Shown here piece by piece: positions 12,399 to 18,475 of a DNA stretch of 64,000 nt. Source of the stretch: Rhodohalobacter halophilus (GTDB lineage: Bacteria > Bacteroidota > Rhodothermia > Balneolales > Balneolaceae); contig NZ_MDWE01000034.1 in NCBI RefSeq assembly GCF_001715195.1, positions 1 to 64,000 of the forward strand, read 5' to 3'. The translations under genes and the position numbers were made by a program. The notes beneath the pieces were generated by a model. It made no database searches. It had not been told where the DNA came from and saw only the letters and a program-made list of their open reading frames with translations. Within the stretch, counting starts at the first letter, position 1, and each line of letters opens with the position of its first letter.

Positions 12399-13289
12399 TT
12401 GATTAAAATACGCTTACAACGAAAAGGAAGAAAGAAACGCCCTTTTTACCACATCGTGGTAGCTGACAGCCGTTCTCCTCGTGATGGCCGAATTATTGAA
12501 AGACTTGGCCGTTTCGATAACGTGAGTGAAAGTAAAGAGCTCACATATGATGAAGAACGTGTAATCCATTGGCTAAAAATCGGTGCACAACCAAGCGACA
12601 CCGTTCGCAGCATTTTTAAGAAAGAGGGAATCCTCTACAAAATGCATCTGATGCGATGGGGTAAAAGTGATGAAGAGATTGAAGCTGCACTCGATGAGTG
12701 GAGACAGGCTCGCGAAGAGAAGAACAAAGAAGATGACGTAAGCCGAAAAGCTAAACAGCAAGAAATTCTGAAAGCTGAAGAGAAAGAGTACAAGAAACAG
12801 CTTGAAGAGAAAGCTGCCGCTGCTGCCAAAGAACTCGAACAGAAGAAAGCTAAAGAAGAGGCTGCAAAAGCTGAAGCTGAGGCAGAGGCCAAAGAGGAAA
12901 AAGCTGAAGCCGCTGAAGAGACTTCTGAAGAAGTAGAAGCGAAAGAAGAAGCTGCCGAAGAAAAAGCTGAGAAGAAGGAAGAGGCTAAAGCAGAAGAAAC
13001 GGAAGAAGCACCTGCTAAAGAGGAGGCCAAAGCTGACGATTCTGAAAAAGAGGAAAAAGCTGAAGCTAAGGAAGAAACTAAAGATGAGCCTGCTGAAGAG
13101 AAGGAAGAAGCCAAGGCAGAAGAGGAAGAGAAGAAAGAGCCCGTATCTCAGGTTTCAACCGATATGACCGCTGCAGAAGCGATTGACCATATTAAAAATA
13201 CCCCGCTTGATGATCTGAAAGGATTTGTTCCTGAGGATGAAGATCGTGTTACGGTTCAGCGTGCATGGGACAGCAAGCAGGAAGAATAA
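12399..13289 (+). CDS. rpsP: 30S ribosomal protein bS16 with a very long acidic/alanine-rich tail
   Basis: Residues 1-85 are a normal bS16 ([23 protein letters not shown]...[12 protein letters not shown]). Normal length is about 80-90 aa, but this protein has 296. Residues 100-250 are low-complexity Glu/Lys/Ala helix. The end (about 255-296) looks folded: [20 protein letters not shown] followed by [18 protein letters not shown]. Extended bS16 proteins are known in Bacteroidota, but this tail is among the longer forms I know. The start is TTG at 12399, supported by AAAGGAG at about 12385-12391 and by homology, since the KIRLQR block begins at residue 3. Confidence 0.95.
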
Positions 13290-16566: not shown

Positions 16567-17007
16567 CTATTTCTCAACAATAATTGTGACAGGGCCGTCA
16601 TTTATCAGATCCACTTCCATCATGGCACCAAATTTCCCTTCCTCAATTAGTAGATTAGTTATCTGCTTAAACCGATCAATCATATAGTCATAAAGTGGTT
16701 CAGCTACTTTCGGTTTCGCTGCCTCTATAAAGCTGGGACGAGTTCCCTTGCGGGTATCTCCATAAAGTGTGAATTGCGAAACTACCAATATTCCGCCATT
16801 AATATCCTCAACAGACCTATTCATTTTACCCTCCTCATCCTCAAAAATTCTGAGTCGTGATATTTTTCTACAACACCAATCTATCTCCTTTTTTGTATCA
16901 GATTCGTGAATACCTACAAGCAGCATCAACCCCCGGTTAATTTTTCCGGTTACTTCGTTATTTACCTTTACCGATGCTCTTTTTACGCGCTGAACGACAA
17001 TCTTCAT
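16567..17007 (-). CDS. dtd: D-aminoacyl-tRNA deacylase
   Basis: Removes D-amino acids (and Gly from tRNA-Ala) mischarged on tRNA. The 146-residue protein begins MKIVVQRVKRASVKVN and shows the two family motifs: SQFTLYGDTRKGTRPSF (about residues 79-95) with the SQ-x-T core, and NDGPVT near the C-terminus carrying the cross-subunit Gly-Pro. Length is typical. The gene points away from the origin-like region, and the first DnaA box starts two bases upstream of its ATG. Confidence 0.95.
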   Translation of the reverse strand: MKIVVQRVKRASVKVNNEVTGKINRGLMLLVGIHESDTKKEIDWCCRKISRLRIFEDEEGKMNRSVEDINGGILVVSQFTLYGDTRKGTRPSFIEAAKPKVAEPLYDYMIDRFKQITNLLIEEGKFGAMMEVDLINDGPVTIIVEK

Positions 17008-17470
17008 ATGTGGATAAGAGTGTGAATAAGTTTGGTTAACAATGTGAACAACAGAAACCTTCCATTATTAAGCAAATCTTTCCACACCAATTCACAAAAA
17101 TCTCGAATTGTACACATAGAAAAAGAATAACTTTCGCTGTGGAAAGACTAGATGCATAAGATAGGTGTGAAACGTATAAAATGTTAATTACTTTTCTAAG
17201 TAGTAGTTAACTCTTTATTTTTATTGACCTATTTATCCACAATGTTATTCACATTTATAAAAGATTATCCAATCAAGAAGGGATAAAAAAGTTTTAAACA
17301 TATCCACACTGCCTACTACTAAAAAACAAATTTCCAATCTCATCTTACTCGTAAATTCCTGTGGATAACAAACAGAATAAATCAAAATGAGTTCTCTCTT
17401 TATTTCTATATTTAAACTGCTTTTAGATGAAGCCTATTAAATTTCGATACTAAAAATTTCCAAAAATACT
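17008..17470. other. Candidate chromosomal replication origin (oriC)
   Basis: This 463-base gene-free, AT-rich stretch lies between divergent dtd and purM. Perfect DnaA boxes (TTATCCACA) occur at 17009-17017 (minus), 17233-17241 (plus) and 17360-17368 (minus). One-mismatch boxes are at 17021-17029 (TGTGAATAA, minus), 17245-17253 (TTATTCACA) and 17300-17308 (ATATCCACA). Weaker ones are at 17043-17051 (TGTGAACAA), 17078-17086 (CTTTCCACA), 17138-17146 (TGTGGAAAG) and 17265-17273 (TTATCCAAT). After the 17300 box come CTGC and three CTA triplets (17313-17321), then an A-rich run. This matches the box, GC, DnaA-trio order of a bacterial unwinding element. dnaA is not in the window. Confidence 0.72.
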
Positions 17471-18475
17471 GTGAGTAAAAAATCATTCAGCTATAAAGAT
17501 TCAGGCGTAGATATTAAAGCAGGTGAACAGCTTGTGGATTCTATCAAAGATGTTGTAAAAGAGACACATAATGAGAATGTTCTGACCAACATCGGTGGAT
17601 TTGGAGCTCTGTTTAATGCAGATTTTTCAAAATATAAACAGCCTGTATTGGTCAGCAGTGTTGACGGAGTTGGTACAAAATTGATTGTAGCTTTTAAAGC
17701 TGAAAAATTTGATACAGTTGGCCAGGACCTGGTAAATCACTGTGTAAATGACATAGCTGTTTGCGGAGCAACCCCTCTCTTCTTTCTTGACTATTTTTCT
17801 ACAGGTAAACTGGAACAGCACGTTGGATTTAACGTCATAAAAGGTTTTTCGAAGGCTTGTAAAGAGAACGGTGTTGCATTGATAGGCGGTGAAACGGCTG
17901 AAATGCCTGACATCTATCAAAAAGGAGAATTTGACCTGGCCGGAACCATTGTTGGCGTGGTTGACAAGGAAGAGTTGATTGATGGATCAAAAATTGAAAA
18001 AGGAGATTTACTGATCGGCTTTAAAAGCAATGGTCTGCATACAAACGGATATTCACTCGCCAGAAAAGTACTGTTTAGCGAATATGAGATTAACGACATT
18101 CCGGGTAAACTGGATCGGTCGGTTGGAGAAGAGATGCTCAAGGTTCATAAATCATACCTGAAGTTGATAACTGAGCTGAAATCGGTAAAGGGTGTAAATG
18201 GATTTTCTCATATTACGGGGGGAGGAATCATTGGAAATACAAAACGTGTTCTTCCCAAGGGAACCGAGCTGGATATTAAATGGGATAGCTGGGAACGACC
18301 TGCTATTTTTGAACTGATCCGCGAAGTTGGAAATGTTGATGAAGAAGATATGCGTCAGACTTTTAATTTGGGAATTGGGTTAATTGCCATAATAAACCCT
18401 GAAGTACTGGATGAAGTTGAAAAGAGAGCGCAAAAGCTCGGTGAAGAGCTTTTTAAAATTGGAGTTGTAAAGTAA
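17471..18475 (+). CDS. purM: Phosphoribosylformylglycinamidine cyclo-ligase
   Basis: Closes the imidazole ring (FGAM to AIR) in purine synthesis. The 334-residue ATP-grasp-like PurM-fold protein contains VSSVDGVGTKLIVAF, NDIAVCGATPLFFLDYFSTG, GGETAEMPDIYQKGEFDLAG and FSHITGGGIIGNTKRVLP, all diagnostic. The start is GTG at 17471, immediately giving SKKSFSYKDSGVDIKAG, the usual N-terminus. Its promoter must lie inside the origin-like region. No other pur genes are adjacent. Confidence 0.96.
   Translation: MSKKSFSYKDSGVDIKAGEQLVDSIKDVVKETHNENVLTNIGGFGALFNADFSKYKQPVLVSSVDGVGTKLIVAFKAEKFDTVGQDLVNHCVNDIAVCGATPLFFLDYFSTGKLEQHVGFNVIKGFSKACKENGVALIGGETAEMPDIYQKGEFDLAGTIVGVVDKEELIDGSKIEKGDLLIGFKSNGLHTNGYSLARKVLFSEYEINDIPGKLDRSVGEEMLKVHKSYLKLITELKSVKGVNGFSHITGGGIIGNTKRVLPKGTELDIKWDSWERPAIFELIREVGNVDEEDMRQTFNLGIGLIAIINPEVLDEVEKRAQKLGEELFKIGVVK

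Follow-up and report, generated by a model that had tools for sequence, protein, structure and literature searches.

The 463-base gap between dtd and purM (17008–17470) is very probably the chromosomal replication origin (oriC) of this Balneolaceae-type bacterium. The assignment follows from the density of its DnaA boxes, a box layout found throughout the order, a DnaA-trio module, a switch in GC skew and the proximity of parS, each computed directly from the genomes. A chromosomal origin between these two genes had been proposed in a preliminary description, which our in silico results on skew, fixed box spacing, trio module and nearby parS support. The best account of the data is an ordinary DnaA-dependent, bidirectional origin, which would have a trio-type unwinding module and an unusual, lineage-specific address.

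The DnaA box array and its conservation

The gap has a GC content of 28%, compared with 44% for the window (the whole 64 kb stretch of DNA analysed), in line with the AT-richness originally ascribed to it. The flanking genes diverge, as had also been described: dtd, encoding a D-aminoacyl-tRNA deacylase (Pfam PF02580), occupies 16567–17007 on the minus strand, and purM, encoding AIR synthase (PF00586/PF02769), occupies 17471–18475 on the plus strand. By PurM, the closest named record (86% identical) is a genome from a brine metagenome that carries the label Chitinophagaceae, and another, at 75%, carries the label Balneolaceae; we treat our genome as Balneolaceae-like. Three exact DnaA boxes (TTATCCACA) are located in the gap at 17009–17017 (−), 17233–17241 (+) and 17360–17368 (−), and these are the only exact boxes in the window. 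Three more boxes carry one mismatch, namely TTATTCACA at 17021–17029 (−) and 17245–17253 (+), and ATATCCACA at 17300–17308 (+). All six were recovered where the preliminary description had placed them, and the "several weaker" boxes mentioned there amount to six additional boxes with two mismatches. Counted per 463 bases, boxes within one mismatch number six in the gap and two in the next densest stretch of the window.

As a null model, 3000 sequences were simulated with the dinucleotide make-up of the gap. They contained on average 0.005 exact boxes and 0.16 boxes within one mismatch, with maxima of 1 and 3, respectively, against 3 and 6 in the real sequence. The gap thus holds an intergenic cluster of DnaA boxes above chance and, adjoining the boxes, AT-rich DNA, both of which are expected of an oriC. 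Its least stable 50-mer (17175–17224) ranks among the least stable of the window. No RNA family was found in the gap at gathering score; a riboswitch or other RNA was rejected, the only match being to a miRNA model (19.4 against a gathering score of 70).

The spacing of the array is fixed across the genus. Counted from the start of dtd, boxes occur genus-wide at positions 2−, 14−, 36−, 71+, 101+, 131−, 175−, 226+, 238+, 285+, 293+ and 353/354−, giving a dtd-anchored core of about 12 boxes at 17008–17370. Over approximately 355 bp, 21–22 genus genomes could be aligned nearly without indels, with a mean pairwise identity of only 55%. Column conservation was 79% in boxes and 60% outside them. Single genomes can lose the consensus at individual boxes, and the box positions are still kept. 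Beyond position 354, the sequence is unconstrained among relatives.

Starting from dtd, the exact box at position 2 has a mean match of 7.4 of 9 in the genus and is followed at position 14 by the box with the highest conservation in the array (8.6 of 9). TTGTTCACA at position 36 (17043–17051, −) and CTTTCCACA at position 71 (17078–17086, +; genus mean 7.4 of 9) each have two mismatches in our sequence. TTGTACACA lies at position 101 (17108–17116, +; genus mean 7.3 of 9), and a second CTTTCCACA at position 131 (17138–17146, −) was identified by box scan and genus alignment. A weak box, TAATTAACA, occupies position 175 (17182–17190, −), for which other genera of the family have TTATCAACA or TTCTCCACA at position 177. 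The plus-strand copies of the exact and the one-mismatch box described above stand at positions 226 and 238. The genus alignment also revealed two conserved elements that are not boxes: AAAGAATAACTTT at 17122–17134, with nine columns conserved to at least 90%, and a segment around ATAGGTGTGA...TATA at 17163–17180.

Most of this layout is kept, with small shifts between families, in the other genera of the family and the other families of the Balneolales (taken here as the genomes listed in the same order as our own), so the architecture is shared by relatives, as expected of an oriC. The gene kept beside the array is dtd, and the right-hand neighbour purM is not fixed: about 0.9 kb is inserted between array and purM in G012 and G005, and in G017 and G031 purM is located elsewhere with the array still next to dtd. 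Two assemblies of the same genus, G011 and G018, have neither a close dtd nor a true purM, so that they apparently lack the origin region, perhaps as an effect of binning.

Towards purM, an overlapping pair of boxes, a spacer of 4 bp and CTACTACTA form a putative unwinding module that matches the DnaA-trio type. The first box, TTTTAAACA at position 285 (17292–17300, +), has three mismatches in our sequence, and many relatives have TTATCCACA or TTATNCACA in its place. The second, ATATCCACA at position 293 (17300–17308, +), follows 8 bp after the first and overlaps it by one base; boxes 6 and 7 of Bacillus subtilis are likewise 8 bp apart. Four bases (CTGC) then separate the pair from CTACTACTA at 17313–17321 (+), which reads as three 3'-GAT-5' trios on the opposite strand. 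According to the rule for the DnaA-trio basal unwinding system (BUS), a DnaA box lies at most 16 bp from at least three 3'-NAN-5' trios, GAT being the commonest box-adjacent trio and the spacer being GC-rich and about 4 bp long (PMC8287927). With its 4-bp spacer and CTACTACTA, our sequence conforms to this rule. Among the 47 relatives in which the final box could be found, CTA(C/T)TA occurs at the trio place in 38, compared with 2% at random positions, and about a fifth are without it; 33 of the 47 have at least three trios in one frame and so pass the BUS rule, compared with 21% at random positions. The AT-rich stretch from the trio to the closing box (17313–17359) is the likely DNA unwinding element, judging by its sequence and its place beside the trio, although the least stable 50-mer of the gap (17175–17224) lies elsewhere. 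The closing box, the exact TTATCCACA at position 353/354 (17360–17368, −), faces the module.

GC skew on either side of the gap

Our genome comprises 3.12 Mb in 92 contigs, with the window situated in contig C28, and skew was read per contig. In the contig of the window and in three relatives, negative skew gives way to positive skew either at the gap itself or no more than about 7 kb away. The raw minima of the four genomes lie about 7, 6.4, 6 and 2 kb from it, a switch of the kind expected at an oriC, with the strand-corrected fit of one genome (G027, below) being off. G027 is a complete genome of the same order with dnaA at base 691. Sampled skew in this genome keeps a negative sign from about 2.3 Mb across 0 as far as about 265 kb, and between 275 kb and 2.2 Mb it is mostly positive. 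A contiguous 557 kb reaches its cumulative minimum at 267.8 kb, and the gap lies at 269.7 kb. G012 shows the flip in sign between its samples at 880–900 and 900–920 kb, with the gap at 893.9–895.2 kb. In G035, the minimum of a contiguous 391 kb is at 299.0 kb, 6.4 kb away from the gap at 305.2–305.7 kb, and dnaA (152 kb) falls within a mostly negative stretch.

A skew minimum elsewhere had been named in the preliminary description as a finding that would refute the origin; the search placed the sign change at the gap and not at dnaA. The dnaA gene sits inside a one-signed stretch in our genome, G035 and G027. In our genome, the contigs carrying dnaA (131 kb) and nrdJ (120 kb read) were positive in each 20-kb bin, and the contig of the window goes from negative to positive.

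In the window itself, the raw cumulative minimum falls at 10.3 kb, a position probably explained by the ffh–rplS operon, and the skew was therefore recalculated by gene strand. Third-position skew was −0.065 (plus-strand genes) and −0.176 (minus-strand genes) to the left of the gap and +0.065 and +0.023, respectively, to its right, switching sign at the gap on genes of both strands. Log-likelihood ratios for a strand-corrected split at the gap and for the best split were 50.7 and 51.3 for our contig, 301.7 and 303.7 for G035, and 9.2 and 9.9 for G012, placing the gap within 2 units of the best in all three. For G027, the strand-corrected fit favours a split at 398 kb, at odds with the raw minimum.

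That ffh–rplS would be head-on to a leftward fork had been raised as a point against an origin at this site. The orientation is real, but the gene-strand-corrected skew still switches sign at the gap. In G035 and G012, ffh–rplS also adjoins the gap and points at it, and head-on placement is therefore a stable feature in those genomes. Also in the window, 12399–13289 encodes a ribosomal protein S16 of 296 residues, in which the S16 domain (residues 8–66) is followed by a long Ala/Glu/Lys-rich C-terminal extension.

Other box clusters, parS and the dnaA locus

The preliminary description had noticed no similar box density elsewhere in the window, and this holds. Genome-wide, two clusters equal or exceed the number of exact boxes in the gap. 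One, with three exact boxes on the same strand upstream of dnaA (C67:30902–31170; L004), probably reflects autoregulation or a former origin. The other contains four exact boxes in 204 bases (C8:92909–93112; L003:8910–9113) before an nrdJ-like gene for a class II ribonucleotide reductase (L003:9292–12867), which suggests that DnaA may control dNTP supply. As these promoters score as high as the gap, box count cannot settle the origin and was rejected as its sole proof. A box pair at 180-kb in G027 was considered as another nrdJ-upstream cluster, an idea that found no support.

The three and four exact boxes that stand before dnaA and nrdJ, where regulation is likely, raise the question of whether the gap could instead be a promoter region through which DnaA controls dtd and/or purM, or a site that titrates DnaA. 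We consider this very unlikely. The skew changes sign at the gap and does so at neither the dnaA nor the nrdJ cluster; parS lies near the gap in relatives; displacement of purM leaves the layout of the array intact; and the trio stands at a fixed distance after the last box pair, which a promoter would not need.

Sites for parS were searched as the palindrome TGTTNCACGTGNAACA, for which reversed controls gave no matches. In 7 of 7 relatives where both could be placed, parS lies 8–68 kb from the gap (8 kb in G003, 13–14 kb in G027, 19 kb in G035, 26 kb in G056, 61 kb in G096, 67 kb in G016 and 68 kb in G012), a proximity that is typical of oriC, though not defining. No parS with this pattern was found in G005 and G093. 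Our genome has two sites, both on contig C17 and not on that of the gap.

The array does not adjoin dnaA, as oriC does where it is dnaA-linked. The gene is on a separate contig (C67) in our genome and approximately 153–361 kb from the gap in G035 (~153 kb), G027 (~269 kb), G056 and G012, which agrees with the location away from dnaA originally proposed. An active origin at dnaA, with the dtd gap a secondary or relic origin, would fit the three exact boxes upstream of our dnaA and the boxes and parS nearer dnaA in sister orders. It is nevertheless extremely improbable, given that skew is positive on both sides of dnaA in our genome, that in G035 and G027 the skew around dnaA, which is about 153 kb and 269 kb from the gap, respectively, keeps one sign, and that parS is nearer dtd in Balneolales. 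Chance matches in an AT-rich intergenic region, where low GC yields more box-like words, can be dismissed as having a negligible probability, since the dinucleotide-matched simulation never neared the real counts and box positions are conserved over the order.

Outside the Balneolales, 20 genomes representing other families of the class were examined and none had DnaA boxes upstream of dtd (one of the stretches, L236, being just 854 bp), and a dtd-linked origin in the sister orders was rejected on this ground. There, parS is at least about 175 kb from dtd in 8 of 8 genomes and 17–62 kb from a dnaA gene in 7 of the 8, the distance being taken from a second dnaA-like gene in G098 and G109; in four of the eight, an exact box or box pair stands just upstream of dnaA. 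Two dnaA-like genes each were observed in G098, G109 and G065; in the first two of these, the weaker-scoring copy is about 28 kb away from parS. The absence of boxes at dtd and the parS sites nearer dnaA suggest that the sister orders have their origin at or close to dnaA and the Balneolales theirs at dtd, and hence that the origin moved. The origin and its parS neighbourhood may have been transferred between the dnaA and dtd loci at the split of Balneolales and sister orders, leaving the boxes at dnaA to regulation, while the box spacing of the new origin was then preserved across the order with nearly single-base precision. We regard this scenario as evenly balanced between right and wrong.

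Proposed initiation mechanism and comparison with known origins

From the arrangement of the array, we infer the following order of events. DnaA would occupy the high-affinity boxes and then fill the weaker ones over about 360 bp. From the overlapping pair at 17292–17308, it would pass onto one of the two strands at the CTACTACTA trios (17313–17321) and melt the AT-rich DNA that precedes the closing box at 17360. Loading of two helicases would follow, and the origin would fire, with forks departing leftward through dtd, rplS and ffh and rightward through purM.

The BUS of B. subtilis oriC consists of DnaA boxes 6 and 7 and DnaA-trios (PMC8287927, PMC6669920). The gap resembles it in having tandem DnaA boxes, a spacer of about 4 bp and repeated 3'-GAT-5' trios, followed by AT-rich DNA. 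Unlike B. subtilis oriC, the Balneolaceae array has three putative trios and lies between dtd and purM and not beside dnaA. The trio of Clostridioides difficile oriC2 has been reported as 5'-CACCTACTACTATTACTACTATGA-3' (PMC7561715) and resembles CACTGCCTACTACTA of the gap. However, the origin of C. difficile is bipartite: it surrounds dnaA, and unwinding takes place downstream of that gene, whereas the gap holds one array far from dnaA.

The oriC of Escherichia coli, like the gap, has its strong and weak DnaA boxes in one compact intergenic array. It is also separated from dnaA (PMC8287927), as is the array in the gap. The two differ in their flanking genes and box order, and the BUS score, reported to be weak in E. 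coli, is clear in the gap. Within the Bacteroidetes/Chlorobi group, DnaA boxes and GC skew have likewise been used to predict the origin of Melioribacter roseus, which was placed between dnaA and dnaN (PMC3534657); that predicted origin stands beside dnaA, the one of Balneolales beside dtd.

A literature search found no described origin in Balneolales, although predictions for complete members of the order may already be on record in public origin databases. The kind of origin is well known; what is noteworthy is its address, its rigid layout across the order and the non-box elements at 17122–17134 and 17163–17180. Fixed spacing over many genomes marks the constrained parts of this oriC, including these two elements. 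Balneolales genomes that have been rotated to start at dnaA, such as G027, would not have their origin at base 1. For this order of marine and halophilic bacteria, our analysis supplies an origin that is precisely located and open to testing. If the proposed relocation is true, it would be a case in which both ends of an origin move are visible, and the contrast with the sister orders makes it testable by ordinary comparative genomics.
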